A DNA stretch of 41,850 nucleotides, taken from positions 1 through 41,850 of the IMG/VR virus record IMGVR_UViG_3300004463_001175. One strand, 5' to 3'. Within the stretch, counting starts at the first letter, position 1. Every line of letters starts with the position of its first letter. Shown one piece after another: positions 5,553-41,850 of this stretch. Made by a program: the position numbers and the translations under genes. This DNA is from a virus. The notes under the pieces were generated by a model. The model saw only the letters and a program-made list of their open reading frames with translations. It had not been told where the DNA came from and made no database searches.

Positions 5553-5827
5553 GTGACGCGCTGACGACGGACCGAGAAGACGCCCTCCTCGGCCGCTTCG
5601 TAGTTGCCGACGCCCTGGAAGCGGTAGTACCACGTGCCCTTGACGTCTGGCTCGACGATCGCCGTGTAGGTGCCCTGCTCCTCGTGGAACTCGACGTTGG
5701 CCGTCTCCGAGTCGCGGCCGGGCGGCTTGACGCTGCAGGTGACTTCGTTCGGGAAGACGATCTCGCCGTTGTCGGTGAAGATCGCCTGCATCGTCACCAC
5801 GTCGCCGATGTCATAGGTCGCGCTCAC
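5549..5827 (-). CDS. Ig-like small virion-associated protein (92 aa)
   Basis: The ATG at 5827 overlaps the stop of the fiber gene (ATGA). The protein is short and beta-rich with alternating polar and hydrophobic stretches (VVTMQAIFTDNGEIVFPNEVTCSV, GTYTAIVEPDVKGTWYYRFQG), the look of one immunoglobulin-type domain as in phage decoration or fiber-accessory proteins. There is no signal peptide. Its coupling to the long fiber gene suggests it binds that fiber or decorates the particle. The family is not certain. Confidence 0.7.
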   Translation of the reverse strand: MSATYDIGDVVTMQAIFTDNGEIVFPNEVTCSVKPPGRDSETANVEFHEEQGTYTAIVEPDVKGTWYYRFQGVGNYEAAEEGVFSVRRQRVT

Positions 5828-8800
5828 GTCGAACTACTAGACAGGCTGACGTCGGCGGCGGACGTCTCAAGCTCGATCTCGGCTTCGGCCCACGTCGTCA
5901 GCCAGACCTCGACGGCGGAGTCGGTGATCTCGATGTCGGCGGGGTCGAACGCCTCGCGTATGTACTGGCGGTGGATCTCGTCGCTGAGCGTCGCCTCGTC
6001 GGCGATCCCGAGACCCTGAACCGGGCCGATCGAGTCGTCGGCTTCGGCCGCGTCGGCGATCTGCTTGACGAGCCGGACGCTGATCGCCTCGGCGATCGCG
6101 ACGGTGTCGTCGAGGCGCTCGTAGCGCTGGCTTTGGGTCGCCGCGTCGGTCAGGCTCGCGGTGTCGCCCTGGGTCTTGGCGATCGCCTTCGCCCGCGCGT
6201 CGTCGATCGTCATCGCCTCGGCTTCGGCATGCCTGGGCTTCTTCGCGGCGACGTCGGTCAGCGGCGCCGTGTCGTCGATCGTCAGCAGGTGGTGGGCGAC
6301 GTGGACGGTCGTGACGTCGTCGGCCAGTTGCGCGGTGTCGTCGATCCCGACCCGATCGCCCTCCGACGTCTGGATCGTGTCGCCGATCGCAGCGGTGTCG
6401 GCGATCGTGCGGACGTAGCTCGCGGCCTCGCTGGCGCTGTCGGTGAGGCTCGCGGTGTCGGCGAGCGGACGGGTCGCTGCCGCGCTGGCGGCATCGGTGG
6501 CGGTCGGCGTCTCGGCGAGACCCTTGCCGACGCTGGCGATCTCGGCATCGGTCGCCGCAGCGGTGTCGGCGGCGCCCTTGCCCGACTTCGCGCTGGTCGC
6601 GTCGGTGACGCTCGCCGTGTCGGCCTGCGGCGACGTCGTCGCCTTCGTCGCCGCATCGGTCAGCGCGGCGGTGTCGTCGGCAGTCTCGCGAAGCGGCAGC
6701 CGGATCTCGTCGCTCGCCGCGACCGTGTCGTCGATCGCGACATTGACGCCGGAGGCGACGGTGATCGAGTCGGTGAAGTTGGCCGAGTCGTCAAGCTCCT
6801 GCTCGGTCAGCAGCCGGGGGTCGATCTCGTCGCTGAGCGCAGCGGTGTCGGCCAGCGCGCTCGTCGCCGCGTTCGTATCGGCGTCGGTGAGCGCTCCGGT
6901 GTCGGCGAGCGGGTGCGTGGCCGTCTTCGCCTGCGCGTCGCTGATCGACGGCGCTTCGGAGAGGCCGACACCCGGCTTCCGAGTCGAGGCATCGGTGACG
7001 CTCGGCGTCTCCGCCAGTCCGACGCCGGGCTTTCGCGTCGAAGCATCCGTTGCCGTCGGCGCCTCGCTGAGTCCGACGCCGGGCTTGCGGGTCGAGGCAT
7101 CGGTGATCGACGCGGTGTCATCGACGGGCTGCGTCCAGGCGGTTGCCGCCGAGCCGCCACCGAACTCGGTCAGCGAGTCGCCGTAGGGGCTGCCGATCCC
7201 AATCTTGCCGCTGGAATAGGTGGAATCGACGACTTGGCCGACCTGCTTCCAGACGCTGTCGGCAGCCCGCTTGACGAACAGGTCGAAGGTCGTCCCGGTG
7301 GCTCGGACGCCGACCTTGTCGCCGCTCGCGATCGGCGTCGTCGCCTGCGGGAACAGGGTGGTCCCGGCCCCGAAACCGGAGAACTTCTGCAACGTCAGCC
7401 CTGTCGCCGTGGTCAGCAGCAGATAGCCGTTGCCGCTTGTCGTGTCGGTTCGCAGATACAGGACCGGCGTCAGCAGCGTCCCGGTCGTCGTCGCCCAGAC
7501 CTCGCAGTCGGTCAGGGTGCCGAGATCGCCACGGAACGCCCGGCCTCCGGCCGTAATATCGACGTCGTGACCGTCGGTCTGGACGGTGCCGTTGATATTC
7601 GTCCAGTTGCCGTCCTGGCTGAGTGGGTTCTCGGTCCGCTCGAAGTCGTCCTTGACGCTGGTGGCCGGGAAGCCCGGCTGCGGAGTAGCCGGAACGTCGC
7701 GCAGGACTGCCGTGTCGTCGATGTTCTTCGTGTGATCGGTCGGCGTCCACTCGACCATCAGACCCATCGCATCGACCATGTGGGCGCGGGTCGAGCCGGT
7801 GAGGATCTTCGTCGCCTCGACAACTGGGACCGTCGTCGGGGTCAGCGACGGGCTGTAGGTCGGCGCCGTCCGAAACGACTTCCAGCCGGTCGGCTCGGTG
7901 CCAGCGACACCGGCCGTCTCGACGGTGACGGTCGCCGCCGTGTCGCTCGGCGTCTGCCCCTGGATCTCCATGTCGTTCGTGCCGGTCGTCGAGTCGCACG
8001 AGAGCCGGGCATACGTCTGGCTGAGCGCGATCGTCGAGCCAGCCCCGGCCGCGTTCAGCGTCTGGCAGTTGGCCCGGTAGTCGGACCAAGTGCCCCCCGC
8101 CAAGTTCGCCGCGTTGAAGATGTACTTGAGGTTGTTCGCATCGACGTCGGAGTGGGCGACGCCGACCGGCGGACGGTTGTTGATCGCGTCGTAGAGGTTG
8201 GTCGTGTCGGAGCCGGTCGTCTGCGGCGCCTCCCAGCCGGTCCCGGCGGCGTTGTCGGAGGTTGGGATCAGCAGCGAGACATTGCCTGCGCCGGGGTAGC
8301 CATTCTGCGCGGAGCCGGTGTGGTCGTTGAAGGCGATGTCGTCGGTGTAGACGGTCGTCTGCGACTCGCCGCTATTCAGGTGGCCCCAGCGGTGCGTGGT
8401 CGTCGTGACGCTGCTGCCGGTGTTGCAGGCCGACGAGGTCGCAACAACCGAGCCGTCGATCTTCAACTCAAGGGTGCCGCTGGTCGCGCCGCCGCCGGTC
8501 GGGACGATGATCTTCGACTCAAGCCGATACCACGTGTTCGGCGAGATTGCCGCCGACGAGCCGATCACGGTGCCGCTGGCCCGCAGCGAGATCGTCCCGT
8601 TCGTATTCAGGACAATGTCGCCGACGATGACTGCGTTGATCCGCCACGTGAACAACTGCAATAGCTGGCTCGGCGTCTCGTCGTCCACGCGGACGTAAGC
8701 CCGCGTGTACATCGGCTGATCGAACGTGTGGTTGCCGATCGTGAACTGGTGATAGTTGCCGCCCGACGGGTTGCATTGAGCAGCCCAGCCGCTGTTGCGG

Positions 8801-8937
8801 GCAACGGTGGTCTGGACCGATGCCGTGCCGACGGCGGAGATCGTGTTCGCCGACCAGCCAAGCTCGGACTCCCCATGCAGGGTCGTCGTCGTCGAAGCAA
8901 TCGCCGACTCAAACCCTGCTGTGAATAGGCGGGCCAT
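5824..8937 (-). CDS. Long repeat-rich appendage/tail-fiber-like protein with two lectin-like domains (1037 aa)
   Basis: Residues about 1-215 form a concanavalin/LamG-like module (NTWYRLESKIIV, LELKIDGSVV, TTVYTDDIAFND). A second jelly-roll-like module spans about 428-595 (DDFERTENPLSQDGNW ... SSGKIGIGSP). From about residue 606 to 1005 the protein is built of degenerate repeats with the core D-T-A-x-[LIV]-[TS]-D-A, including three near-identical 18-residue copies of ASTRKPGVGL-x8 at residues 614-667. The repeats contain no cysteine and look like a rigid stalk. The protein is probably an external virion fiber that binds surface glycans. It follows a 161-residue structural-like gene preceded by a late-promoter-like element. 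It lies 13 kb from the tail module. Confidence 0.78.
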   Translation of the reverse strand: MARLFTAGFESAIASTTTTLHGESELGWSANTISAVGTASVQTTVARNSGWAAQCNPSGGNYHQFTIGNHTFDQPMYTRAYVRVDDETPSQLLQLFTWRINAVIVGDIVLNTNGTISLRASGTVIGSSAAISPNTWYRLESKIIVPTGGGATSGTLELKIDGSVVATSSACNTGSSVTTTTHRWGHLNSGESQTTVYTDDIAFNDHTGSAQNGYPGAGNVSLLIPTSDNAAGTGWEAPQTTGSDTTNLYDAINNRPPVGVAHSDVDANNLKYIFNAANLAGGTWSDYRANCQTLNAAGAGSTIALSQTYARLSCDSTTGTNDMEIQGQTPSDTAATVTVETAGVAGTEPTGWKSFRTAPTYSPSLTPTTVPVVEATKILTGSTRAHMVDAMGLMVEWTPTDHTKNIDDTAVLRDVPATPQPGFPATSVKDDFERTENPLSQDGNWTNINGTVQTDGHDVDITAGGRAFRGDLGTLTDCEVWATTTGTLLTPVLYLRTDTTSGNGYLLLTTATGLTLQKFSGFGAGTTLFPQATTPIASGDKVGVRATGTTFDLFVKRAADSVWKQVGQVVDSTYSSGKIGIGSPYGDSLTEFGGGSAATAWTQPVDDTASITDASTRKPGVGLSEAPTATDASTRKPGVGLAETPSVTDASTRKPGVGLSEAPSISDAQAKTATHPLADTGALTDADTNAATSALADTAALSDEIDPRLLTEQELDDSANFTDSITVASGVNVAIDDTVAASDEIRLPLRETADDTAALTDAATKATTSPQADTASVTDATSAKSGKGAADTAAATDAEIASVGKGLAETPTATDAASAAATRPLADTASLTDSASEAASYVRTIADTAAIGDTIQTSEGDRVGIDDTAQLADDVTTVHVAHHLLTIDDTAPLTDVAAKKPRHAEAEAMTIDDARAKAIAKTQGDTASLTDAATQSQRYERLDDTVAIAEAISVRLVKQIADAAEADDSIGPVQGLGIADEATLSDEIHRQYIREAFDPADIEITDSAVEVWLTTWAEAEIELETSAADVSLSSSST
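6937..7098 (-). repeat. Three 54-bp tandem repeats inside the fiber gene
   Basis: Three consecutive 54-base units encode 18-residue copies that differ mainly in the SEAP/AETP segment (SEAPTATD, AETPSVTD, SEAPSISD) while ASTRKPGVGL is kept in all three. They begin the wider DTA-x-x-TDA repeat field, which extends to about base 5925. Such exact DNA-level repeats favour length change by slippage or recombination. Confidence 0.85.
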
Positions 8938-8957: not shown

Positions 8958-9443
8958 TCAGGTCGCGCTAAGCGTCCACGTCCACGTGATCTGCAACGTG
9001 TCGCCAGCGGCCTTGTTGATCGTCGAGAACAGCGCCCGGCTGTGCATGTTGCCCGACGACGAAGCGTCGAAGACGCCTGCCTCGGTGATCGCTCCGGTGC
9101 CGTCGCCAGCCGCCCAATCGCCGACCATCGTCAGGACCGCGCCGGAGCGGTTCTTCGACGTCAGCGCGTTGCGGTCAAGCTCGGTTGTCAGCGACGTCTG
9201 CCCGGCCGCAGGCGACGTGCCTCCGGTGCCGATCGCCATATGGGTCGGCTTGCCGAGCGACGGCGAGGCGACAAGCTGATCGACGATCGCGTTGACGCCG
9301 GTCGTCACGATCAAGTTCGACTTCTCGACCTCCTGCTTGACCTCGCCGTCGGGGCCGCGCAGGACGAGCTTGACGTTCTCGCTGGTCTTGATCTGCTCGA
9401 TCGGCGGCGCCGTGTCGGCAGGCTTCTCGGTCGTCTCGGTCAT
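8958..9443 (-). CDS. Phage structural/appendage-like protein (161 aa)
   Basis: A GGAGGAG site sits 3 bases before the ATG at 9443. The protein has a disordered start (MTETTEKPADTAPPIEQ) followed by a beta-rich domain with a pattern common in phage tail-appendage proteins: a glycine-rich turn (AIGTGGTSPAAGQTSLTTEL), then a GDGTGAITEAGVFD segment, then FSTINKAAGDTLQITWTWTL at the C-terminus. The precise role is unknown. It starts the detached structural block and is the only gene there with a copy of the capsid/tail late element upstream (9470-9493). It may attach the long fiber encoded next. Confidence 0.75.
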   Translation of the reverse strand: MTETTEKPADTAPPIEQIKTSENVKLVLRGPDGEVKQEVEKSNLIVTTGVNAIVDQLVASPSLGKPTHMAIGTGGTSPAAGQTSLTTELDRNALTSKNRSGAVLTMVGDWAAGDGTGAITEAGVFDASSSGNMHSRALFSTINKAAGDTLQITWTWTLSAT

Positions 9444-9456
9444 TGCTCCTCCGGAG

Positions 9457-9473
9457 ATCGGTTTGAGACCGAT
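9457..9473 (-). promoter_or_regulatory. 6-bp hairpin in the 5' leader of the structural-like gene
   Basis: ATCGGT at 9457-9462 and ACCGAT at 9468-9473 are exact complements around a five-base loop. The hairpin lies between the late-promoter-like element and the ribosome-binding site of the gene at 9443, overlapping the element by four bases. It could stabilise the transcript's 5' end or be an operator half-site pair. Confidence 0.35.
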
Positions 9474-9493
9474 TCTGCGAGAGGGGTCGGACG
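9470..9493 (-). promoter_or_regulatory. Late-element family, copy 3 (diverged)
   Basis: Read on the minus strand, this 24-base stretch matches the element upstream of the major capsid gene at 19 of 24 positions without gaps, keeping CGTCCGA at the left and TCGCAGA at the right. It ends 26 bases before the ATG at 9443, compared with 57 bases for the two closer copies. Its place in front of another structural-type gene supports a shared regulatory function. Confidence 0.5.
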
Positions 9494-9495
9494 AC

Positions 9496-11957: not shown

Positions 11958-11986
11958 ACTATACGCCGTGTCGGGGTCAGCTACAA
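11958..11986 (-). promoter_or_regulatory. Sigma70-type promoter TTGTAG-N17-TATAGT
   Basis: On the minus strand TTGTAG (11986-11981) and TATAGT (11963-11958) are separated by exactly 17 bases. The predicted transcript starts about 50 bases before the ATG at 11901. The spacer contains GTGTCGG on the plus strand, a half-site of the 20-bp palindrome found at 2293 and 15891. The -35 overlaps the edge of the upstream terminator, a compact terminator-promoter junction. Confidence 0.7.
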
Positions 11987-15856: not shown

Positions 15857-15862
15857 AGTATA
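15857..15862 (-). promoter_or_regulatory. -10 element TATACT of the ATPase promoter
   Basis: TATACT occurs on the minus strand 39 bases before the ATG at 15817. The position 17 bases further upstream reads ATGCGC, not a -35 box. The 20-bp palindrome at 15891-15910 lies 28 bases upstream of the -10, so its centre would be near -50 from the start of transcription. A promoter without -35 and with a dyad at that place is the pattern of activator dependence. This is inference. Confidence 0.55.
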
Positions 15863-17005: not shown

Positions 17006-17358
17006 TAGCCGACCGGGACGCGATCGAGCGAGACGTCATGCTCGCTGAGAAAGAACTGCAGCAGCGGCGGCTCCGGCGAACGCAGGTAGCCCTGCTCGAC
17101 AAGGTCGTGATGATCGCGGCAGAGGGTGACGCCGTTGCGGACGTCCTGCTTCGCCTGGATCGTCCTCAGTCGTCGCTTCGGCACGAAGTGGTGCGCGTCG
17201 ATCGTCTTGGAGCAGGGGGTTACTCCGGTGCCGTGGCAGCGCCGACAACCCGGCCCGCCGCAGCGGTGACAGACGGCTCCGGCAAGCTCGCAGCGGTTCT
17301 TGCCGTCGTTAGTGACGGCCCGCCAAAACGCTCGGTAGTTGATCCGCTCCTGTCGCAT
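17005..17358 (-). CDS. HNH endonuclease-like protein with DnaJ-type zinc motifs (117 aa)
   Basis: The ATG at 17358 is preferred, with GGAGGG 13 bases upstream; a GTG at 17382 would add eight arginine-rich residues. The HNH core is AHHFVPKR (H56, H57), N75, and C80-RDHH84. Between the first conserved part and the HNH lies CHRCGGPGCRRCHGTG (residues 30-45), which is two CxxCxGxG units as in the DnaJ zinc domain, followed by C49. It may cut DNA at packaging, act as a homing nuclease, or only bind DNA. The terminator upstream makes it the first gene of a short unit. Confidence 0.8.
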   Translation of the reverse strand: MRQERINYRAFWRAVTNDGKNRCELAGAVCHRCGGPGCRRCHGTGVTPCSKTIDAHHFVPKRRLRTIQAKQDVRNGVTLCRDHHDLVEQGYLRSPEPPLLQFFLSEHDVSLDRVPVG

Positions 17359-17419
17359 ACGCCGTCGTGCCCTCCGGTCCACAAGCGGATCATCGGTGCC
17401 GAGTCGGACGGCAACGACA

Positions 17420-18589: not shown

Positions 18590-19051
18590 CTAGTGAACCT
18601 TGACGATCGTGCCCTTCGGCACCCGGTTATAGAGGTCGATGACCTCGTCGGCGTACATGCGAATGCAGCCGTGCGAGGCCGGGGTGCCGATCGAGTAGTC
18701 GGCAGCGGTGCCGTGGATGCCGACGCCGTCCCATAGCTCGATCCAGCGGGCGACGATCGGGTTGCGCGGGTCGCCGCCCTTGATCACGGTGCCGCGATCC
18801 TCGGGCGCCACCCAGGCCGAGTTCGGCATGAGCCAGTCCGGGTTCTTCGCCCGCTTGAGGACGCGATACCAGCCGGGCGGCGTCCGGTAGTCCGGCTCGC
18901 CGCCCTTGCCGTCGTAGAAGCCGATCGCGACCCGGTACGCCTTGACGAACTCCAACTTCGACGACGAACCCTCCGCCTTGAACAGACGGAGGGTTCGGGC
19001 GCCGAGATCGACGTCGATCGCCGTGTCGGGGTATCGCGGCGGTCCGATCAT
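18590..19051 (-). CDS. L,D-transpeptidase (YkuD catalytic domain, 153 aa)
   Basis: The active-site signature is complete: GIHGT with H113, then SHGC129IRM at 126-132 with the nucleophilic cysteine, in the spacing of YkuD enzymes. The domain fills the whole protein (AIDVDLGARTLRLFKAEG at the start, KGTIVKVH at the end). There is no signal peptide, so export would rely on the holin or on incorporation into particles. The enzyme forms or exchanges 3-3 cross-links in peptidoglycan. It overlaps the holin-like gene (ATGA) in a lysis block, an unusual partner for wall-degrading enzymes. It could remodel the wall before lysis or open tetrapeptide links in reverse. Confidence 0.9.
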   Translation of the reverse strand: MIGPPRYPDTAIDVDLGARTLRLFKAEGSSSKLEFVKAYRVAIGFYDGKGGEPDYRTPPGWYRVLKRAKNPDWLMPNSAWVAPEDRGTVIKGGDPRNPIVARWIELWDGVGIHGTAADYSIGTPASHGCIRMYADEVIDLYNRVPKGTIVKVH

Positions 19052-32700: not shown

Positions 32701-35700
32701 GTGACCATCCCGTCGTAGGACTTGCTGACCTTGACGGTCATATCGCCGACGTTCTTTTTGATGTCGCGCGTGGACTCGCCGGTCGCCCGCGCCGCCCGCT
32801 TCCACGACTGCTCCTGAACCTCGCCCGCCTTCCGGAACTTGTCGATCAGGCGGTCGTACTCGTTCTCGGTGATCGCGCCGGACTTGAGCGCCTGCTTCGC
32901 CGCGTCCTTGAACGCCTCGCGCTGCTTCTTCGACATGTTCGCGAAACCGACCGCGACCGATCCCGACTCCTGCTTCATCCGATCGAGCAGCCCAAACAGC
33001 TTCCCGGCGCCCTTCTTGCCCAACTGATTGAGGTTCTGGTTTATGTCAACGATCCGGGCGCCGGAAGCCTTCAAGTCAGCCGGGTCGAGACCAGCGGCCT
33101 TGATCAGGTTGCGGGGGATCGCCCGGCCGTTGCGAGCCATTCGCTGCAGGTCGTCGGCGAGATTGCTGAGCGCATCGTGGGAGGCAGCAATCCCGCCCGC
33201 CATTGGCCCGCCGAGAATGATGCTGCCCTTGCTCGCGTTGTCGGTCTCGGTGATCTGCTTTTCGATCCGGCCCATCTGGAAGGCCGTGTCCTTGAGCGAC
33301 GCGGCGAACTTCGGGCCGATCTCCTGTCGCGCCGAGCGGATCGTCGCCTTCAACTCCGCGTTGGCGGTGGCGATCTCCTTCTGCTTCGCCTTCCAGGCAT
33401 CGAGCGCCTCGACCTGCTCCTCGATTGGCGCATCCGACTTCGCCAACTCGATGTAGCGCTGCCGCAGCCCCTTCGCCTCCTCCTTGAGGACGAGAACGTG
33501 GGCAGCCGTCGTCTTCACGGCCTCCTCGGTCGCCTTCTTCGACGTACCTCGGATCAGCGTGTTCGTCTGCTCCGAAGCCGCCAGTCGGGTGCCAGCGACC
33601 CGCGAGTCGAGCTTCGCGCGCCGGACGGCATCCTCAGCCCGGACCACTTCGCGCGAGTTGTCGGGGTACTTCTCGCGCGCCCGCATGAGCCGCTCCTCGG
33701 CGTTGCTGAGCTTGCGGGTCGCGGCCGTGTCCTGCTGGCGGGCGCGCTGGACCCGACGGCTCGACGAACTCAGCGCCGGGATCAGGTTCTGGAAGTTCTC
33801 GATCGCCTTCTTCGACTTCTCGGCAAGCTGCTGCTCGACGTTCGGCTGCTTGAGCGCGTCGCCGAGCGCGTCGCCGAGAACGGTCCCGATCCCGCCACCG
33901 ATCAGCGCGCCGGGCAGACCGCCGATCAGCCCACCGGCCAGCGCTCCGGCAGCGCCGCCGCCCGCCTCAAACGCGGCGCCGCGCATGTCGCCACCGATCG
34001 CGTCGGCTGCGATGTTGGCAACGCCTCCCGCCGCGACAGCCCACGGTCCGGCCTTGAGCGCGAACTTCTTGAAGCCCGCGATCAGCGAAGCGCCCATCGA
34101 CTCCCCGGTCCCCATCGCGGCGGTCGAGAACAACTGCATCTGCCCGCTCGCCGCCATAGTCGCCTCGGCGGCGGAGACCGTCGCCGCCGTGGACTTCGCG
34201 ACGCCGCCGAGAATCCCGAGATGGGTGACGAACGTCTTGATCCCGGTGATCGCCGCGCCGAAGTTGAACGCGGAGGAGATCGCCTTGTAGCCGATCAGGG
34301 TGACGAGGACCGTTTGGAACCCCGGCACATGCTCGATCATCCAGTTCAGCGCCTTCGCGAGCGCGTTCATCGTGTCCACCCAGACGTTCAGCGGACCGCT
34401 CGTCCCGGCGAGATGACCGATCACCTTGGCGACGTTCGTGATCAGGTCGATCAGCCTCGGCCCAAACGCCTTCGTGGTGCTGGTGATCAGGTCGGTCAGG
34501 ACCGGCAGCAACTGAGTCCGAAGCTGCTTGAGCATCGGCGTCAGGACGCCTTGGGTCCGGCTCTGCAGCGAGAAGAACGCCTTGACGACATCGACGAGCA
34601 GCCTGCCCGCTTCCCACAGCGGCGGGCGGATCTGCTTGAAGAACTCGGCGATCGAGTTCTTGCCCCTCGCCGACTCCGTCCATTCCTTGAGCGCCCGCGA
34701 TCCCTCGACGAGCTTGTCGATGATCTGCCGCCCGAGCGGCGCCCCGAGCTTGCCGATGTTGTAGAGCGCGCCCCAGAGGTTCTTGAACAGGCCGACGAGA
34801 TCCTGAGTCACGTCCTTGGTCTGCTCAAAGAACTTGGCGAGATCGCCGTTGCGCCGGTTCAGCGCCGCTGCCGCCTTGATCCCATCGGACCAGCGCGCGA
34901 ACAGCTTTGTGAACCAGAGGGTCAGCGGCCGAGCGACGACGAGGACGTCGGTGAACGCCTTGCTCAGGTTCAGCAGCACACCGCCGAGCCGCCCGAGCGC
35001 CTGATTGTTCGTCTTGCCGATCCTCGCGATGTCGCTGGCGAAGTCCTTGCTGCCGACGAAGACCCCCATCCGCGTCGCGATGTCGCCAAGCTGCTTCGCT
35101 GTGCCCCGGAGAATCTTCTGGAAGGTCGGGAAGGCGCTCCGCGCCTCCTTCAACCCGGCGGTCAGCCCGGAGAACAGCGGCGCTTGAACGGCAGCCTGTA
35201 GCTCCTTGACCGGCTTCTTCATCCGATCGAGCGTGATCGCGAACTTCTGCCCCTCCGGGGAGAGCTTCTTGAAGGCGTCGGCAGACTTGTCGAGCCGCTC
35301 GTTGAGACCGCCGACGGCCGCAGTCACGTCCTTGATCCGAGCCAGCGCAAGCGTCGCCCTCACCTGCCCGAACAGGACGAGACCACTCCCCGCCGAAGCC
35401 AGCGCCCCGCTCAGCGGCCCTAGCGCGGCGGTCAGCGCGACGGCGCCGCCAGCCAGCGCCGCAATCGCCTCCGCAGCCGCCCCGGCGGCGGCGATGTAGG
35501 CGGGCCACTTGAGCAGCGTCATCGCCTTCGTGAGGACGTGGATCGTCGCCGAAGCGGTGATCACGTTCTTGGAGAAGCCCCGGAAGCCGTCGGACGACTT
35601 GCGGACGTGGACGTCGGTGTCGGCGACCTGCTTCCCCATCGCCTTCGACGAGGCGCCGACCTCGTCGTAGGACTTCGCTACCGCCGCCGCGCGGGCAGCG

Positions 35701-35804
35701 GACGAGTAGAGCCGCTTGTCGAACAGACCAAGCTGCGAGGCCGCAGCCTTGGTATCGACGTTGACATCGACCGCCAGCCGGGCAGCCGCGCGACCGATCG
35801 CCAC
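29742..35804 (-). CDS. Tape measure protein with embedded peptidase and double-psi-barrel domains (2020 aa)
   Basis: The GTG start at 35804 immediately follows the frameshift reading frame's stop. Long helical stretches and two glycine/alanine-rich hydrophobic segments (near 125-170 and 590-640) are typical of tape measures. From about 1158 to 1260 a NlpC/P60-like fold appears, with C1194 (VDCSG) and H1239 (PDHTVM). From about 1345 to 1440 a double-psi beta-barrel of RlpA type is seen (YTASWYGPTPSTTG ... IRAIDLWEDAAKRLPG). Long helical regions resume afterwards. At about 0.15 nm per residue the tail would be near 300 nm, by the usual rule. The enzymes could open peptidoglycan during DNA entry. 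Confidence 0.93.
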   Translation of the reverse strand: MAIGRAAARLAVDVNVDTKAAASQLGLFDKRLYSSAARAAAVAKSYDEVGASSKAMGKQVADTDVHVRKSSDGFRGFSKNVITASATIHVLTKAMTLLKWPAYIAAAGAAAEAIAALAGGAVALTAALGPLSGALASAGSGLVLFGQVRATLALARIKDVTAAVGGLNERLDKSADAFKKLSPEGQKFAITLDRMKKPVKELQAAVQAPLFSGLTAGLKEARSAFPTFQKILRGTAKQLGDIATRMGVFVGSKDFASDIARIGKTNNQALGRLGGVLLNLSKAFTDVLVVARPLTLWFTKLFARWSDGIKAAAALNRRNGDLAKFFEQTKDVTQDLVGLFKNLWGALYNIGKLGAPLGRQIIDKLVEGSRALKEWTESARGKNSIAEFFKQIRPPLWEAGRLLVDVVKAFFSLQSRTQGVLTPMLKQLRTQLLPVLTDLITSTTKAFGPRLIDLITNVAKVIGHLAGTSGPLNVWVDTMNALAKALNWMIEHVPGFQTVLVTLIGYKAISSAFNFGAAITGIKTFVTHLGILGGVAKSTAATVSAAEATMAASGQMQLFSTAAMGTGESMGASLIAGFKKFALKAGPWAVAAGGVANIAADAIGGDMRGAAFEAGGGAAGALAGGLIGGLPGALIGGGIGTVLGDALGDALKQPNVEQQLAEKSKKAIENFQNLIPALSSSSRRVQRARQQDTAATRKLSNAEERLMRAREKYPDNSREVVRAEDAVRRAKLDSRVAGTRLAASEQTNTLIRGTSKKATEEAVKTTAAHVLVLKEEAKGLRQRYIELAKSDAPIEEQVEALDAWKAKQKEIATANAELKATIRSARQEIGPKFAASLKDTAFQMGRIEKQITETDNASKGSIILGGPMAGGIAASHDALSNLADDLQRMARNGRAIPRNLIKAAGLDPADLKASGARIVDINQNLNQLGKKGAGKLFGLLDRMKQESGSVAVGFANMSKKQREAFKDAAKQALKSGAITENEYDRLIDKFRKAGEVQEQSWKRAARATGESTRDIKKNVGDMTVKVSKSYDGMVTASIGGMDWLMSKTGAAMKALGLKQELKWKRTRGGLPTSQAGHPQRTGGITSNLVPGIGTGDKVPLHLAGHHVADVEPGELVSVTNRRATARLMEANDAIPRDGAALASLGGFRKGGSLEAAGGMSAMIALANKYERAHYPYQWGGGHGGFPNGTQPVDCSGAVSDILHAGGLLDGAPMVSGALMSWGQPAKGNEAVVVYANPDHTVMSLNGKVFGTSNSNQPGGGAGWIEGASGASLAPGAKRTMPVSGGAMVKEIARQILHQKGGREAAMHDEGQGAMDKTWRSANAFLAKLMPKGAFGGGDSQLPFSGTYTASWYGPTPSTTGAAGVDLRGTQSFAELSNDPGAGTGADFAALGGLPFHTHISVTYRGRTIDVEKLDVGAGGPGLNGHIRAIDLWEDAAKRLPGFMAAGIADVDIGMAGGRGKRRGKRKGGLLGGLRTGSLVGPQLDKLTMERGGGDGHAFMGFRQDQKISQHEQGKLLHIAGKGRPWSSFKHFKAGVNAALKAEEGDIPQYRKLYKRARFMHKFPLGHLPSYNVRKGGVLGLQDGGVIPLTAAAGELARPSVLPSNPGWMGDDDGGGRGGGRGSRGGKILNLSKTIKRLVGLDDSKKHTVAEKQKKIVEGVRDRLKKLVKGKDFPVDANGELAGTIGELREQANTYGEWADNAASLEGPFKQKTETEWLQKELTTLLRLRNVLIKAIKQMEEREDDITDLERTATKRLHNYEKKVKRGEKHLGKKGKTPSGWDDKDENPQTIDVAKWNKLSAKKRKNLLAKFDHMGGALPGDRYALPNGKLATPESDPKFFPNIEGWKRVTSLLQGTVLGALKGSGGIEATFKDTIDTLREELKTVAGTGGGMQILKPKDVIDKVGRFGGEILDIQTTLRDIAAENAPQAMSIDDLRGVIEAARFGVFDDLPKFHTGGVVPGPVGQEVPIMARGGEVVSTGAGDVTVVNNFSWDEFGAVIETEVNGQFAKRERIERHARRQF

Positions 35805-36324
35805 CTACAGGCCCGCCTTCCGCTCCTCAGCTTCTTGCGCGTATAGCTGCGTCCACCACAGGTACTCGACGGTGGTCATCTCCGATTCCATCTGCCTGAC
35901 GGTCATCCCGAGATCGCGGGCAAGCCGGAACCGGAACCGCATGTGACTATTCGCCTGGAAACTCCTGGGCCGCAGCCGACCTCTCAGTCTCGTTCCCGGC
36001 GATCTCGCCGAACTTCTCGATGACGCGATCGAGCGCCGAAGCGGGCCAGCTACCAAGGAAAGCGGCAGCCTCCTCCTGGGTCAGCTTCGGCTCGCTGACA
36101 GCCGCCGCGAAGATCGCCGCGAGCTTGTCGATCGAGACATCGGGTTTCCCGGCGTCGTCGGTCAGTTCGGGGAGGTTGTCTCGCTCCTCGACCGACAGCG
36201 CCTTGAGGACGACGTAGCCGTCCAACTCGGGAAGCTCCAACTCCTCGCTGCGGAACTGGAACCGACTGCGGTCGGCGAGCGCCTCCTTCGTCAGAGGCGC
36301 CCGCCCATTGGTCGTTTCGGTCAT
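35805..36324 (-). CDS. Tail assembly chaperone, frameshifted long form (about 172 aa)
   Basis: Reading shifts from the chaperone frame to the next frame near 35959, giving 122 residues of the short form followed by 50 more ending at 35805 (ANSHMRFRFRLARDLGMT ... WTQLYAQEAEERKAGL). The extension has the usual gpG-T look, with a conserved LGMT and W-x-Q/A-x-Y. The frame relation is +1 (or -2). The most likely slip is UUU-C: tRNA-Phe can re-pair from UUU to UUC. An independent start at the ATG at 35942 is possible but has no Shine-Dalgarno, and fusion is the rule for this gene position. Confidence 0.75.
35947..36324 (-). CDS. Tail assembly chaperone, short form (125 aa)
   Basis: AAAAAGGAG precedes the ATG at 36324. 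The protein is acidic and helical (ALTKEALADRSRFQFRSEELELPELDGYVVLKALSVEERDNL ... VIEKFGEIAGNETERS). Length, composition and location between the major tail protein and the tape measure are those of gpG-type chaperones, which coat the tape measure during tail assembly. It ends with a TAG at 35947-35949, just after the predicted slip site. Confidence 0.87.
   Translation of the reverse strand: MTETTNGRAPLTKEALADRSRFQFRSEELELPELDGYVVLKALSVEERDNLPELTDDAGKPDVSIDKLAAIFAAAVSEPKLTQEEAAAFLGSWPASALDRVIEKFGEIAGNETERSAAAQEFPGE
35955..35964 (-). other. Predicted +1 frameshift site (GAG UUU CCA GG)
   Basis: The short-form frame reads GAG TTT CCA GGC GAA TAG. A +1 slip of the P-site tRNA from UUU to UUC gives TTC, then CAG GCG AAT AGT CAC ATG, entering the extension frame three codons before the stop. 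A -2 slip would reach the same frame. No downstream pseudoknot was checked. Confidence 0.55.
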
Positions 36325-36347
36325 CGCTGCTCCTTTTTGGTTGCTGG

Positions 36348-36770
36348 TTACGCCTCGGCCCGCACGACGCCGGACGACCCGGCGTTGGAGAAGGTGACGT
36401 CGGTCGTCGAGAGGTCGCCGACTCCACCGCTCAGCGGCGTGTAGCCGAGCAACATCGACTCGGGGAGCGTGTAGCGCGGGTTGTTCGCCCCGACGGCGGC
36501 GCCGGTCGGGATGACCTCGACGGTGAACGTCTCGTCTTGGTTGTTGAGCGCGTTCAGCTTCTGATCGACCTTGCCGGACGCGAAGTCCTGCTGGAACGTC
36601 GCGGTGATCTGCGCCGTCCGCAGCCCCTTGACTGCCGACGTGTAGACCGAGCCGAACGCGGTCGAATCGACGTCGGCGGCGCCGTCCTCGACGGTGACTG
36701 ACGTGCAATGGTCCGAGAGATCGAGTCCATCGACCGTGATCTGCACGTCCCTGAGAACTACCTTGCCCAT
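36348..36770 (-). CDS. Major tail protein (140 aa)
   Basis: AAGGAG sits before the ATG at 36770. The protein is small and beta-rich with the opening VVLRDVQITVDGLDLSDHCTSVTVED and an internal KGLRTAQITATFQQDFASGKVDQKLN, as in siphophage major tail (tube) proteins. It should polymerise into the tail tube around the tape measure. Order (neck proteins, tail protein, chaperone, tape measure) agrees. It has its own upstream copy of the 25-base late element at 36828-36852, consistent with the high output it needs. Confidence 0.88.
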   Translation of the reverse strand: MGKVVLRDVQITVDGLDLSDHCTSVTVEDGAADVDSTAFGSVYTSAVKGLRTAQITATFQQDFASGKVDQKLNALNNQDETFTVEVIPTGAAVGANNPRYTLPESMLLGYTPLSGGVGDLSTTDVTFSNAGSSGVVRAEA

Positions 36771-36827
36771 TTAGGGAATCTCCTTGGGGATTCGATGTAT
36801 GCTCAGGGACGCTGTGAGCCGATAGGA

Positions 36828-36852
36828 CAAGTCTGCGAGGGGCATCGGACGG
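36828..36852 (-). promoter_or_regulatory. 25-base late element, copy at the major tail gene
   Basis: The 25 bases differ at only one position from those at 40285-40309. On the minus strand it begins CCGTCCGAT and ends CTCGCAGACTTG. It ends exactly 57 bases before the ATG at 36770. No ordinary -35/-10 pair is seen within or after it. It also holds the last bases before the plus-strand gene's GTG (36852) and may supply that gene's GAGGGG ribosome-binding site. Confidence 0.65.
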
Positions 36853-37169
36853 TGAGAACGCGCAAGGCTCCGTTGAAGGTCTGCGAGGGCTGCGGCGACG
36901 CCTTCACGCCGAAGCAGCCCTACGCGAAGCGGCCCATGCGCTTCTGCTCGCGGCGCTGCTACCACCTGAGCCAAGAGCCGGACCTCTCGATCAAGCTGGC
37001 CGACGGCAGGCGGGTCGCCGCCGTCGAGGTCGAGTGCCAGCAATGCCACAAGCCGTTTCTGGCTGTTCGCGCGCGTGTGCGCGCGGGGCGCGCGCGCTTC
37101 TGCTCGCGCTCGTGCGCGCGACGCTCAGCGGGCCGCGCGCTTGAGCGTCGTCCGGACCTGCCGAACTAG
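36852..37169 (+). CDS. Tandem zinc-finger moron-like protein (105 aa), only plus-strand gene
   Basis: Two copies of the same zinc motif are clear: C11-x2-C14 with FC32-S-R-R-C36, and C62-x2-C65 with FC84-S-R-S-C88. The FCS-x2-C pattern is common in small phage zinc-binding proteins. The GTG at 36852 is preferred (GAGGGG about ten bases upstream); an ATG at 36795 would add 19 residues. Its 3' end overlaps the gp10-like gene by 45 bases on the opposite strand. It interrupts the head-tail operon, points the wrong way and has unusually CG-alternating codons, all signs of an acquired moron. Function unknown: nucleic-acid or protein binding. Confidence 0.75.
   Translation: MRTRKAPLKVCEGCGDAFTPKQPYAKRPMRFCSRRCYHLSQEPDLSIKLADGRRVAAVEVECQQCHKPFLAVRARVRAGRARFCSRSCARRSAGRALERRPDLPN
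37069..37121. other. CG/CA alternating tract (Z-DNA-prone)
   Basis: This stretch is dominated by alternating pyrimidine-purine steps (runs such as CGCGCGTGTGCGCGCG). It encodes the arginine-rich linker and second zinc finger of the plus-strand gene. Such runs are rare elsewhere in the window. They favour left-handed DNA and slippage and mark a compositionally distinct insert. Confidence 0.55.
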
Positions 37170-37526
37170 ATCCGCCTCGTGCATCTCCGCCGCCGGGCGC
37201 AGGTACGGCTGCGGGTTCATGTTCTCGGTCCCGTACTCCTGAAAGATCCCCCAAAAGGCGCCGACGCGGATCGCGTAGCCGCCGTCGGGAACCCTGTCGG
37301 CGTCGATCGACTCGGCCAGCCAGCCCGGCTCGCGGTGGAAGCTCGGGTAAACGATCGAGTGGTTCAGCTTCGGGGCGAGCCGCCGCGCATCGCGGGCGAC
37401 CTCGTTGGCGATCGCTCGCTCGTCGCGCTCGCACTCGTGGACGATCTCGGCGACGATGCCGGGAATCCGATCGTCGAAGTCCACGTCGCTGACGAACTGG
37501 CCGAGATTGCTTCGCCGCAGCGCCAC
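37125..37526 (-). CDS. HK97 gp10-family head-tail joining/tail component (133 aa)
   Basis: The start at 37526 overlaps the previous gene's last base. The protein follows the HK97_gp10 pattern: an N-terminal helix with VARDARRLAPKLNHSI, a beta core (GGYAIRVGAFWGIFQEYGT) and the ending NMNPQPYLRPAAEMHE. It is expected at the neck, helping to close the head or tail tube. It lies between the terminator-like protein and the major tail gene, as in HK97-like phages. Its 3' end overlaps the plus-strand zinc-finger gene. Confidence 0.85.
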   Translation of the reverse strand: MALRRSNLGQFVSDVDFDDRIPGIVAEIVHECERDERAIANEVARDARRLAPKLNHSIVYPSFHREPGWLAESIDADRVPDGGYAIRVGAFWGIFQEYGTENMNPQPYLRPAAEMHEADLVRQVRTTLKRAAR

Positions 37527-37990
37527 TACTGCTCCCGGCCCGAGCCTTCGTACTCGATCTCAAAGTCGCAGCCCAAGACGACCGTGCCGTCCGGCCGTCG
37601 GAAGTTGCGGACCGGGCTGACCCGGTTGACATTGAGGTCGGAGGTCAGCCCGCCGAGCGTCCGCTCGCGCTCGCCGGTCTCGGGGTCGCACTCGACCACC
37701 CGCTTGATCGACTTCGGGCCGTCCGGCGAGCGGAACTGCCGGAGCCGGATCTGAGCGCCGATGTCCATCGACTGCCCGACCGTGACCCGGACGACCGCCT
37801 CGTAGCGGTCGAAGCCGCGAGCGAAGGACTCGTCGAACTCGATCACGCCGGGAAGGATCTCGGCGGTCGGAGCGGTCGCGTTGCCGAGCATGTAGGCCGA
37901 CTGCTGCAGCCCGTCGATCTCGGCGAGACGCGCTGCGATCGCCTGACAGACCCGCTCCTCGTAGGGGCTGTCCTGCGGTAGCTCCGGCAC
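37526..37990 (-). CDS. Tail terminator-like completion protein (154 aa)
   Basis: The GTG at 37990 shares its G with the upstream TAG stop; no earlier start is more convincing and the protein-like sequence begins here (VPELPQDSPYEERVCQAIAARL). The C-terminal half (RTLGGLTSDLNVNRVSPVRNFRRPDGTVVLGCDFEIEYE) resembles tail terminator proteins. Position after the gp6-like connector would also fit a gp7-like stopper. It should cap the tail tube or seal the connector. Identification is by position and fold impression only. Confidence 0.65.
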   Translation of the reverse strand: MPELPQDSPYEERVCQAIAARLAEIDGLQQSAYMLGNATAPTAEILPGVIEFDESFARGFDRYEAVVRVTVGQSMDIGAQIRLRQFRSPDGPKSIKRVVECDPETGERERTLGGLTSDLNVNRVSPVRNFRRPDGTVVLGCDFEIEYEGSGREQ

Positions 37991-38625
37991 TAGCTGAGCC
38001 GCCGTGTGCGCGAGTACGGGCCGACCAGCATCGCGACGTCGGGGTCGCCGGTCGCGATCCGCACGGCGATCCCGTCGGCGCCCATCCCGGCGACGCCGAA
38101 CGGCGCCTCGCGGACGCGCTTGACGAGCCTCGTCGCCAGGATCGACGTCGCCGCCTTGATCGGGTCCGGCACCGTCGCCCAGCCGAATGTGCCGGTGACG
38201 CGGACGACCGGCCACCGCAGGCTCTCGGCATCGGAGAGGCCGTAGTAGCAGTACGGCTCAAAGCTCGGGATGCGACCGCTCTGGCGAAGCTGCAGCCCCT
38301 CGATCGGCTGCTCGTCGTCGGCGTAGTTGTAGGGGAGCAGGTCGTAGTCCTCGCCCTCGGTCAGCGACACCCAATCGCCGGTCCCGCGTTCATCGACCTC
38401 GACGCCCGAGACTGCGGCCATGTCGCCTAGCTCTAGCCAGCCGCGCCGCGATGCCACGTACTCGCGCGTCGCCTCGCCCTCCTCGACGGCGAAGGTGCGG
38501 CCGGTCTGCGCCTCGATAGCCGATGATGCGGCGCTGATCGCCAGTTCTAGGTCGTCGTCGGCGTAGGTCTCGCCGCTGATCTCAAGCGAGCGCTTGAGGT
38601 CTTCCAGATCGACGTAGGCAGCCAT
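37990..38625 (-). CDS. Head-tail connector, gp6-like (211 aa)
   Basis: The ATG at 38625 follows immediately after the preceding stop (TGAATG). The N-terminus is typical of the gp6-like connector family: YVDLEDLKRSLEISGETYADDDLELAISAASSAIEAQTGRTF. A beta-rich middle and a helical end (PIKAATSILATRLVKRVREAPFGVAGMGADGIAVRIA) complete it. It should form the ring beneath the portal, linking head and neck. Gene order (capsid, small protein, connector) agrees. Confidence 0.87.
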   Translation of the reverse strand: MAAYVDLEDLKRSLEISGETYADDDLELAISAASSAIEAQTGRTFAVEEGEATREYVASRRGWLELGDMAAVSGVEVDERGTGDWVSLTEGEDYDLLPYNYADDEQPIEGLQLRQSGRIPSFEPYCYYGLSDAESLRWPVVRVTGTFGWATVPDPIKAATSILATRLVKRVREAPFGVAGMGADGIAVRIATGDPDVAMLVGPYSRTRRLS

Positions 38626-38796
38626 TCACGACTTCGGCTGCTCGTCGGTGATGATCGCGTAGCCGACCGGGATCGGATCGCCCGCGACGACCTTGAAGCA
38701 GTCACCCGAGACGGGATCGACGACGGTGACGTCGGTCTGGGCGATGACTGCGAGCGCCTCCTCCTCGACCTGCGTCTGATCGGTGATCTCCGTCAT
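38626..38796 (-). CDS. Small protein between capsid and connector (56 aa)
   Basis: AAGGAG sits just before the ATG at 38796, and the stop abuts the connector start. The product opens acidic (MTEITDQTQVEEEALAVIAQTDV) and then is hydrophobic-beta (TVVDPVSGDCFKVVAGDPIPVGYAIITDEQPKS). Small proteins at this place often decorate the capsid or help assembly. It is not recognised as a known family. Confidence 0.75.
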   Translation of the reverse strand: MTEITDQTQVEEEALAVIAQTDVTVVDPVSGDCFKVVAGDPIPVGYAIITDEQPKS

Positions 38797-38815
38797 GCCT
38801 CTCCTTGGGTAGTCC

Positions 38816-38863
38816 TGACGGGGACCGGGTGGCGAGCAGCGTCTCTCCGACCCGGCCCCGTCA
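38816..38863 (-). terminator. Strong hairpin after the major capsid gene (attenuator?)
   Basis: Bases 38816-38830 and 38850-38863 pair over 14 bp with one bulged base, around a 19-base loop. It begins about 12 bases past the capsid stop. No U-run follows on the minus strand. Such a hairpin may reduce read-through into the connector genes or protect the capsid message 3' end, so that capsid is made in excess. Confidence 0.55.
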
Positions 38864-38874
38864 AGCCTGCTTGG

Positions 38875-40227
38875 TTACGCGAGTTCGACCTGCTGGAACA
38901 GCGACGGCCTCCACACGAGAAGCGCGGCGCGCATCTCGGCGAGGATCGTCACCCGGTTCCGCAGGAAGTCGTCCTGATCGCTGTCCGAGAACAGCACCTG
39001 AACGCCCTCGCGGATCAGGATCTGGGCACCCATGCCGAAGTCGGCCGTGAGCGCGACGCCCTGATCGAGAACCTGACTCGGGATGACCCGGACGCCCCAC
39101 AGGGACGAGGGGGTCTCGCCGAACGGTCCGCCGCCGTAGTAGGAGTATGACCCGGCGTCATCCGCCGCGTTGTGCGCCTTGGCGACCATCACCTTGAACC
39201 AGTCGAGCGGGTTCATCACGGTCCCGTCGGCCTGACCGTCGTTCAGGTAGACGGCGGTGATACCGGACAGCACCTGCTCGGCGAGCGGGACGCTCGCGGA
39301 GTAGGAGACCGTGCCGATCCCGTCGGTGTTCAGGATGCCCTCGATGTTGACGCCGGACCCGTCACCGTTCAGCACCTGCTCGGCGAGCCGAAGCTGAACC
39401 ATGTAACGGAGCCGCGAGTCGATCGTGGTCCGCAGCGCCGGGAAGTCCGCGAGCGCCTGCTTGCGGGTCTTCATCCAGGCAGCGATCGTCCGCACCGGCG
39501 CGTCCGCGTCGATGTAGTCGTTGATCGTGCCTTCCGGCTTGAGTTCCCCTTCGGGAACCTCTCGCGCGAACGACGATCCCGTCACCGGGCGCTCCTGCGT
39601 GTACGGCACGAGGTTCCCGTCCGTGGTCCCGACAGGGATCAGGTTCAGGAAATCGACCTTGTTGCGCTGAGCGAGCGGATAGACCGGCTCCCGACCCTGC
39701 AGCATCGTGGACTCACGCGGATCGCCCGAAGGCGCCCGGCGAGTCGGCGGCAGAATGTCGGTTCCCATCGGGTCGGCGTAGACCGTCCCGCCGAGATCCG
39801 CGACGATCGTGTCTCGCGACGCGATCGTGCCGAGATCGAGCGAGCCGAACCGGGACTGCGACTTGGAGATCGCCTCCAACTGCGCCTGGATCTGCTCGTC
39901 GCCGAGGATATGGGCGCTGCCCCATCCGAGCGTCGGCTGCCCCTCGGGCTGGCGATGCTCGCGCTGCTCGGCCTCGGAGTCGCCGAGGAGCTTGAGCAGA
40001 TCGACCTGCTTCGCCTGCGCGACCTCGATCTTGTCGAGAACCTCGCCATGCTCCTTGACGGCTGCCATTGCCTGCGCGTGTGCGGCCTCCTCGTCGCCGC
40101 CGTTGGCGAGTGCCTCGGCGTACTCCTTCTTGGCCTCCTCGCGCTTCCGACCCGTCGTGGCCTTGTCCTCACGCAGCCCACGGAGGTCGGTCTCCACCTG
40201 AGAGAGCTTCCTCTTTAGCTCGTCCAT
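38875..40227 (-). CDS. Major capsid protein, HK97 fold (450 aa)
   Basis: AGGAGG sits nine bases before the ATG at 40227. The first 100 residues form a charged coiled coil (MDELKRKLSQVETDLRGLREDK ... KIEVAQAKQVDLLKLLGD), the delta or scaffolding domain that the adjacent S49 protease would remove. The HK97 fold follows: NLIPVGTTDGNLVPYTQERPV, the E-loop region, and the C-terminal DFLRNRVTILAEMRAALLVWRPSLFQ. It polymerises into the procapsid. Its leader carries the 25-base late element. The length is normal for this family including the delta domain. Confidence 0.93.
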   Translation of the reverse strand: MDELKRKLSQVETDLRGLREDKATTGRKREEAKKEYAEALANGGDEEAAHAQAMAAVKEHGEVLDKIEVAQAKQVDLLKLLGDSEAEQREHRQPEGQPTLGWGSAHILGDEQIQAQLEAISKSQSRFGSLDLGTIASRDTIVADLGGTVYADPMGTDILPPTRRAPSGDPRESTMLQGREPVYPLAQRNKVDFLNLIPVGTTDGNLVPYTQERPVTGSSFAREVPEGELKPEGTINDYIDADAPVRTIAAWMKTRKQALADFPALRTTIDSRLRYMVQLRLAEQVLNGDGSGVNIEGILNTDGIGTVSYSASVPLAEQVLSGITAVYLNDGQADGTVMNPLDWFKVMVAKAHNAADDAGSYSYYGGGPFGETPSSLWGVRVIPSQVLDQGVALTADFGMGAQILIREGVQVLFSDSDQDDFLRNRVTILAEMRAALLVWRPSLFQQVELA

Positions 40228-40284
40228 TCTTGGGATTCCTCCTGTTGGTTCCTCCGCGCAGCAGCGCTAGAGCCTTTCTGGAAC

Positions 40285-40309
40285 CAAGTCTGCGAGGGGT
40301 ATCGGACGG
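40285..40309 (-). promoter_or_regulatory. 25-base late element, copy at the major capsid gene
   Basis: It is identical to the copy at 36828-36852 in 24 of 25 bases and, like it, ends exactly 57 bases before the start codon (40227). It begins two bases past the stop of the upstream gene, so it lies wholly in the intergenic space. The 57-base leaders of the two genes are otherwise unlike each other, so the conservation is limited to the element. Confidence 0.7.
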
Positions 40310-40310
40310 C

Positions 40311-40991
40311 TTAGTCGATCAAGGCGTCGGCGGTCCGTTCGGCCTCCCGTTGGGAACGGAACCGAAGCGGTGGCTTCGGCTCCGGCCGATCGGCGTAGAG
40401 GACGAGCAGCGCGTCGTCGTCGCGGCCGGTGATCGGGTTGCCGGGGAGCAGGTTGGCGATCTCGCCGACATGTTCGGTCGCGTAATGCAGGTACTCATAG
40501 GCATGCAGCGGCGTCTCGCCGTACTCCCGCACATCGAGTTCGCGGAGTAGCTCGATCTGGCGAACCGCCTTCGCGTGAAGGCTGCGGAGCGCCTCGGTCG
40601 CGCGCTCGCCGCACAGCTTCGCGATCCGCTCGATCACCGCCAACGCTCGCTCAAAGGCGTTGCCGGTCGAGCGGCCGAAGCCGTAGGCGTCCTCGACCCG
40701 ATCGACCTCGCCAGCAAGGTCGCGCTCGATCTTCGCGACCTGCTCGCGCCGCGCCTTCGCGGTTATCGGGCGCGGCTTCGGGAGCTTCTGGCGGCGCTGG
40801 CCGACGTCGAGATACTGGTTGACCGTCGAGCGGCCCTGCTTCCGCTTCCGCCGCGTCGAGCCGTTGCTCGGCAGATCGACGTCGGGCAGGTTCGGCTTGT
40901 TCGTGAACCGCCCCTTGCGGTCACGCGGATGGAGCCGGTCGAACTTGCTATCCGAGCGCAACGTCGGCGATCCGCGACGCCTGATCTTCAC
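40311..40991 (-). CDS. Hypothetical basic protein between protease and capsid genes (226 aa)
   Basis: The GTG at 40991 overlaps the protease gene by 44 bases; a TTG shortly downstream is possible. The N-terminus is basic with the phrase HPRDRKGRFTNKP, a motif seen in phage structural proteins. The middle is helical (YLDVGQRRQKLPKPRPITAKARREQVAKIERDLAGEVDRVEDAYGFG). The end is mixed (LYADRPEPKPPLRFRSQREAERTADALID). Position suggests a head assembly or minor head factor. No recognised family. Confidence 0.68.
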   Translation of the reverse strand: MKIRRRGSPTLRSDSKFDRLHPRDRKGRFTNKPNLPDVDLPSNGSTRRKRKQGRSTVNQYLDVGQRRQKLPKPRPITAKARREQVAKIERDLAGEVDRVEDAYGFGRSTGNAFERALAVIERIAKLCGERATEALRSLHAKAVRQIELLRELDVREYGETPLHAYEYLHYATEHVGEIANLLPGNPITGRDDDALLVLYADRPEPKPPLRFRSQREAERTADALID

Positions 40992-41850
40992 TCGCGGCGA
41001 TCCGGTCGGTCGTCACCTGACCGCCCGCGTCGATGATCGTCTCCTCCAAGGTCGCGACCCGATCGGCGAGTCCGGCCTCGACGGCTGCCTCGGCGAGCAG
41101 CGTCCGGCCCTCGCCGTACCCCCCGGCGACGTCGGTCGGATCGACGCCCCGGCCTTCGGCCACGTCGCTGACGAACTTGCTGTAGAACAGATCGACCTTG
41201 CGCTGGCGCGCCTCGGCAGCCTCGCTGCTGAGCGGCTGGAAGGCGTTGCCCTCCGTCTTGTACTTGCCTGCGCTCGTGATCGTCACGTTCAGCCCGGCCT
41301 TCTCGTTCGCCTCGGACTTGTCGGTGTGGAGCATGTACGTACCGATCGAGCCGACCTCACCGCTTGGCGCAACGACGACCTCGTCGGCCTGACTGGCGAG
41401 CCAGTAGGCGGCGCTCCCGGCCATTGTGTTCGCGACGGCGGTGATCGGCTTCTCCTTGCGAACCCGGCGGATCAGCGCGGCGGTCTCGGGGATGCGGTCG
41501 GTCAGCCCGCCGGGCGAGTTGACCTCGATGACGATCCGATCGACGGTCTCGTCGGCGACGGCCTTGGCAAGCTCGTTGCGGAAGCTGGCGATGCCGCCGC
41601 CCATCCCGAGCAACTGCCCGATCGCCCCGCCGCCCTGCGGGGTGATGACGCCGGTCAGCGGCACGACGGCGACGCCGCCCTGCTTAGTTGCCGAACGCTC
41701 CGGATCGCCGAATGGCCCGGCGACGACGATCCCCGCCGAGACGGCACCCGCCAGCAGATCCATCGACTCCGGCAGCATCGCCCACGGACGGCTGCCTGTC
41801 GTCAGCAACTCCGCGAGGAGTCGGCCGTCGATCGCGTGATCCTTGCTCAT
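40948..41850 (-). CDS. Capsid maturation protease, S49/SppA-like (300 aa)
   Basis: The ATG falls on the window's last base, so its ribosome-binding site is outside. The fold is of S49 type: VAVVPLTGVITPQGG, VDRIVIEVNSPGG (111-115), then MAGSAAYW with nucleophile S146, and AGKYKTEGNAF with general-base K198. S49 proteases next to HK97 capsid genes cleave the scaffold or delta domain during maturation. Length is normal for the phage form. Gene order protease, unknown protein, capsid is compatible with this role. Confidence 0.93.
   Translation of the reverse strand: MSKDHAIDGRLLAELLTTGSRPWAMLPESMDLLAGAVSAGIVVAGPFGDPERSATKQGGVAVVPLTGVITPQGGGAIGQLLGMGGGIASFRNELAKAVADETVDRIVIEVNSPGGLTDRIPETAALIRRVRKEKPITAVANTMAGSAAYWLASQADEVVVAPSGEVGSIGTYMLHTDKSEANEKAGLNVTITSAGKYKTEGNAFQPLSSEAAEARQRKVDLFYSKFVSDVAEGRGVDPTDVAGGYGEGRTLLAEAAVEAGLADRVATLEETIIDAGGQVTTDRIAASEDQASRIADVALG

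Follow-up and report, generated by a model that had tools for sequence, protein, structure and literature searches.

The virus contig IMGVR_UViG_3300004463_001175, analysed here as a window of 41,850 nucleotides (nt), carries three copies of a 25-nt intergenic element, all on the minus strand and each lying 5' of a virion gene, namely those for the major capsid protein (MCP), the major tail protein (MTP) and a fibre-like structural protein. We consider this element to be probably the core of a phage-specific late promoter and, as the best reading of the sequence, one that host RNA polymerase would recognise once redirected by a putative phage factor. The record is incomplete, starting at the head protease and lacking the portal and terminase genes, and all counts given here are contig-wide. 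Its G+C content is about 66%, nearly every gene lies on the minus strand, and non-coding sequence makes up 6% of the record.

The original prediction described two 25-mers that share 24 of 25 bases, lie in the same orientation and end 57 nt before the ATG of a major tail and a major capsid gene. Our analysis bears out the positions, the identity, the strand and both gene assignments, and adds a third copy that is weaker, matching at 19/25 positions. The three loci are composed as follows, all on the minus strand.

36828..36852, minus strand: element copy 1, CCGTCCGATGCCCCTCGCAGACTTG, 5' of the MTP gene
36771..36827, minus strand: 57-nt leader from copy 1 to the MTP start, containing AAGGAG
36348..36770, minus strand: MTP gene (phrog_4574, E 3.2e-24)
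40285..40309, minus strand: element copy 2, CCGTCCGATACCCCTCGCAGACTTG, 5' of the MCP gene, starting 1 base past the preceding stop codon (TAA G)
40228..40284, minus strand: 57-nt leader from copy 2 to the MCP start, containing AGGAGG
38875..40227, minus strand: MCP gene, HK97-type (PF05065, E 1.8e-26; phrog_10)
9470..9494, minus strand: element copy 3, TCGTCCGACCCCTCTCGCAGAATCG, outside genes, with exact core boxes, starting 1 base past the preceding stop codon (TGA G)
9444..9469, minus strand: 26-nt leader from copy 3 to the fibre-like gene, mostly Shine-Dalgarno region
8958..9443, minus strand: fibre-like structural gene (phrog_5417, E 1.8e-26; phrog_4176 tail fiber, E 1.1e-7; PF23140 fibre Gp80, E 1.6e-4, under the PF23140 cut-off)

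Beyond copies 1 and 2, no site in the record matches the element with three or fewer mismatches, the expectation from shuffled sequences being 0.00. A profile was built from copies 1 and 2 together with the copy in a sister contig, L031, and was scored against a background of 300 order-4 Markov genomes on both strands. Scanning the record with this profile returned one additional site, copy 3, at 18.2 bits, a score reached somewhere in 2.3% of the Markov genomes; when its position in the non-coding 6%, on the coding strand and just 5' of a gene, is combined with the score, the odds of such a site are about 7e-4. The core shared by the copies, CGTCCGA-N5-CTCGCAGA, has three exact matches in the 41,850 nt, every one intergenic, on the coding strand and 5' of a virion gene. 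The original prediction had also stressed the exact 57-base spacing; the spacings are 57, 57 and 26 nt in the window and 58 nt in L031, and the exact value of 57 is therefore a coincidence.

Oriented, asymmetric and mostly intergenic sites are also described for the stoperators of cluster A mycobacteriophages, repressor-bound sequences of 13-14 bp that are spread genome-wide (PMC9262239), and the element could by analogy be a repressor or silencing site that halts transcription in the prophage. There are, however, three sites here, unlike the genome-wide stoperators, all of them before virion genes, and neither a repressor nor an integrase gene was seen among the scanned proteins of this incomplete genome. 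We regard a stoperator-like role as quite improbable.

Conservation provides a second line of evidence. L031, a contig of 4,648 nt, aligns with window positions 34518-39184 at 79% nucleotide identity, and its MTP, about 91-94% identical to that of the window, is likewise preceded by a copy of the element, ACGTCCGATGGCCCTCGCAGACTTG. Between the two sequences the element is identical at 23/25 positions (92%) and the MTP leader at 31/58 alignment columns (53%), which argues that the element is constrained separately from the leader, although the two leaders are not wholly unrelated and have CTGAGCATAC in common. This comparison concerns the MTP copy (copy 1) alone; L031 stops inside the MCP gene.

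The element does not resemble a promoter for the host housekeeping enzyme. As the original prediction had noted, there are no evident -35 and -10 boxes: neither the gaps that hold the three copies nor the corresponding gap in L031 contain a TAnnnT -10 hexamer, so that the element does not qualify as a SigA (sigma-70) promoter, and a sigma-70 promoter search of positions 35000-41850 found none. Two gaps before non-structural genes serve as contrast cases.

11958..11986, minus strand: SigA-like promoter, TTGTAG-N17-TATAGT, before a non-structural block (gap 11902-12003)
15857..15862, minus strand: -10 hexamer TATACT with TGC upstream (extended -10), before a non-structural gene (gap 15818-15958)

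The sequence GCCTTG, considered as an ECF-like (extracytoplasmic function) or -35-like partner, precedes copies 1 and 2 by 10 nt but is missing at copy 3, and was taken as chance.

The original prediction had left the choice between a dedicated late promoter and an activator site. Oriented intergenic copies before virion genes, conservation in the sister contig and the missing SigA -10 favour the promoter. An activator site acting from afar on a separate promoter further downstream is hard to reconcile with copy 3, whose 26-nt leader already has to house the Shine-Dalgarno sequence and could not accommodate such a promoter. For the same reason any start site at copy 3 would have to lie at the downstream edge of the element, and with no space for a downstream -10 the element would itself be the promoter core, if it is a promoter at all. 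A start site forced to that edge, together with a block of promoter-like size (about 23 to 25 nt), would also suit a phage-encoded single-subunit RNA polymerase, as had been suggested for this element. Siphophages of this size rarely encode such polymerases, and no polymerase or sigma factor gene was present among the proteins searched in this incomplete genome, which encodes a primase/helicase-type set instead; the suggestion is thus unsupported, and we judge it most improbable.

The element might instead act as RNA, as a signal for 5'-leader processing, stability or translation within a long late transcript that would raise the yield of MCP, MTP and fibre without a new promoter. The structural genes otherwise form one long, tightly packed operon, every copy lies in the same orientation upstream of a Shine-Dalgarno sequence, and a role in translation has been proposed for the start-associated sequences of cluster K phages. 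Yet no shared or stable RNA fold was found for the element (z -0.25, -1.0, -1.2 and +0.3), which stops between 26 and 58 nt short of the start codon, away from the ribosome site, and copy 3 leads a gene block separate from the main structural operon, making a shared late transcript less likely. Action as RNA therefore has an outside chance in our estimate. The block in question consists of the fibre-like gene and a second gene, 20 nt 3' of it, which probably shares its transcript.

5824..8937, minus strand: gene for a 1037-aa repetitive protein

With the late promoter as our preferred reading, the three copies would be organised in two boxes. Box A, CGTCCGA, would bind, at about -30, a late activator or a sigma-like factor made by the phage, much as MotA replaces -35 recognition at T4 middle promoters, a parallel offered as an analogy for box A and not as a claim of membership. 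Box B, CTCGCAGA(C/A)T, would substitute for the -10 region (CAGACT/CAGAAT), and transcription would start a few bases 3' of the element. The resulting leaders would be about 50 nt long at the MCP and MTP genes and about 20 nt long at the fibre gene, and each would include a Shine-Dalgarno sequence of its own. The host enzyme alone should be unable to use the element, since the SigA boxes are lacking, and the MCP, MTP and fibre genes would therefore be switched on only once the phage factor has been made. The T4 MotA-box middle promoters and gp55 late promoters likewise combine host polymerase with a phage factor, each having a phage-specific element in place of a normal -35 or -10 and the late class standing before virion genes; their signals, however, are AT-rich and their factors known, while the window element is GC-rich and its factor putative.

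Several points weigh against this promoter. Of the roughly 40 proteins of the incomplete genome that were scanned, none was recognised as a sigma factor, an activator or an RNA polymerase, and the copy count is small, at three plus one in the sister contig, with copy 3 the divergent one. The two SigA-like promoters used for contrast are themselves recognised by sequence match alone, conserved intergenic sequence at these places could instead work as RNA or as a binding site, and the conservation of copy 1 may partly stem from the start region of an adjoining antisense gene.

This antisense gene, which the original prediction missed, lies in the 354-nt gap between the preceding minus-strand gene and MTP.

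36852..37169, plus strand: antisense gene encoding 105 aa with two CxxC...FCSxxC zinc fingers

A slightly longer reading in the same frame (P0002) matches the HNH endonuclease family phrog_1271 (E 1.2e-11). Base 36852 is both the first base of copy 1 and the first base of the gene's GTG start, a 1-base overlap. The gene is kept in L031, in frame, with all zinc ligands and 59-65% identity (dN 0.32, dS 0.45). In two more distant relatives, L046 and L043, whose MTPs are 41 and 44% identical, a full protein with a zinc finger, an HNH domain and one or more further zinc fingers is encoded antisense at the same place upstream of MTP. The zinc-finger arms of the HNH family are present in the window protein, whereas the HNH nuclease core, present in L046 and L043, is missing from the window and L031 proteins, so that the antisense gene is of the homing-endonuclease type without its nuclease core. 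We take it, on sequence grounds, to be a relic of an HNH homing-endonuclease gene inserted next to the promoter. Since neither copy 2 nor copy 3 is flanked by such a gene, the simplest order would place the element first and the gene later, the gene having entered in antisense directly against the upstream side of copy 1 and left the element intact. Precedents exist in phage T4, where segD is an antisense endonuclease gene beside the major capsid gene and I-TevI represses a late promoter by binding an operator that overlaps it (PMC2988022). Both segD and the gene described here are free-standing, endonuclease-type and antisense at a late structural gene, but segD belongs to the GIY-YIG type, whereas the window's gene is related to the HNH type and no longer encodes a nuclease domain. 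Such a relic would show how a homing gene can settle by an essential promoter without breaking it.

The proximity of the two also allows the converse, that the element belongs to the mobile zinc-finger gene, as its own leader and ribosome site or as the binding site of its protein, with the MCP and fibre copies being scars or targets. The reverse complement of copy 1 indeed places GAGGGG 9 nt before the antisense GTG, the antisense protein is related to HNH homing endonucleases, and the autorepression of I-TevI would be a model for such binding. On the other hand, no zinc-finger gene or remnant lies by copies 2 and 3, the similarity ends at the element and does not enter the gene, all three copies run in the same direction ahead of virion genes, and neither a scar nor an empty site was found, which leaves this origin distinctly unlikely. 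We also considered the element as coding sequence: the reverse-complement frame reads (Q/R)(V/F)CE(G/R)xRT, which is zinc-finger-like, but differences between copies mostly change the amino acid, L031 carries a 1-base deletion there and at copy 2 the frame does not stay open for long, so this candidate was rejected. Separately, CTCGCAGA occurs within the zinc-finger gene at 36876-36890, where V-C-E codons account for it, and a second HNH-type endonuclease gene lies at 17005-17382 on the minus strand (phrog_8048, E 1.1e-6).

Short repeats linked to gene starts are known from other phages. The original prediction had pointed to the start-associated sequences of cluster K mycobacteriophages (SAS/ESAS), 13-bp sequences (GGGATAGGAGCCC) present in 11 to 19 copies at the ribosome site and proposed to act in translation (PMC3203893). 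The comparison is apt in kind, as in both cases a short conserved repeat accompanies gene starts in a single group of phages, but fails in position: the window element differs in sequence and lies 26 to 58 nt before the start, and the ribosome site of the downstream gene falls outside it. A closer likeness is found in Microbacterium phages, in which cluster EC carries 12 copies of an 18-bp intergenic motif with a suggested regulatory role and cluster EI carries five copies of a 30-bp motif (PMC7302621). The EC motif and the window element are both asymmetric, keep one orientation and are found in short gaps between genes, upstream of the ribosome site, and the EC copies, 21-30 bp before the start codon, are comparable in position to copy 3 at 26 nt. 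By inspection, however, the EC consensus TAGaCTATaGGTgTaAgC is unrelated to the window element, its copies lie mostly among non-structural genes and not, as do the three copies here, before virion genes, and EC and EI phages encode a sigma factor, none being seen in the scanned proteins here. Phage-specific late switches are already known, with few described in this virus group, and the feature that would be unusual in the present case is the restriction to virion genes. According to a mycobacteriophage review from 2022, late promoters merit study for their high activity, and the number characterised is small (PMC9262239). The three copies and the sister copy define two fixed boxes that are directly testable in a reporter, and, if our reading is right, they would provide GC-rich hosts with a strong promoter that depends on the phage, and could serve as bait in finding the late factor.

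Exact and degenerate scans of IMG/VR with the element recovered L031 alone, the other matches being scattered and of the chance type, and a wider family of the element was rejected on this basis. Searches with MCP, protease and fibre for relatives bearing an MCP-side copy yielded either distant homologues without the element or L031 again. Among 396 Actinomycetota genomes drawn, there were only distant MCP homologues (≤36%), and none of the fetched loci stood out in the profile scan. These results bear on the proposal that the element is a conserved gene-boundary sequence, kept to aid recombination that swaps modules among related phages. All copies do lie at gene junctions, two of them 1 base past a stop codon, but absence of the element from the other phage contigs scanned leaves no pool of recombination partners, and the restriction to virion genes would go unexplained; we find the proposal very hard to credit.

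A check for repeats upstream of MCP, covering at most 45 MCP-bearing relatives, brought out one, L127, a 44.9-kb record whose MCP is 37% identical. It holds three same-strand copies of a different element, TTCTCATyCnTGAGAAA...TTGAGA (L127:1619, L127:4592 and L127:10908), unrelated in sequence to that of the window. The copies are located just past the terminase stop codon and before head-tail-joining and portal genes, before a protease-capsid gene, and before another gene behind an endonuclease VII-like gene, which suggests that phage-specific late elements arise repeatedly at such places. A bolder version of the late-promoter reading, and one to which we attach little probability, is that the window element represents a GC-rich two-box promoter class without a SigA -10, served by a new type of factor that is neither a sigma of a known family nor a single-subunit polymerase and confined to virion genes, with unrelated phages such as L127 having arrived at this layout by evolution through elements and factors of their own.

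At the other end of the MCP gene lies a hairpin whose stem and loop are better conserved in L031 than the surrounding coding sequence.

38810..38872, minus strand: hairpin 3' of the MCP gene, -40.1 kcal/mol, z -3.3, 62/63 identical in L031

It is possibly a terminator or a messenger RNA stabiliser, and its position at the end of the MCP unit agrees with a separate MCP transcript, which this conserved hairpin would close under the late-promoter model. Rfam and tRNA searches gave no matches. Another relative, L117, has a strong hairpin 3' of its own MCP gene.

Two further observations concern other genes. Within the gene for the 1037-aa protein, repeats with a 54-nt period (5967-7132, minus strand) encode an 18-residue repeat, as in fibre and decoration proteins, and near the endolysin gene there is a gene for an L,D-transpeptidase (18590-19051, minus strand; YkuD, PF03734, E 3.8e-23).

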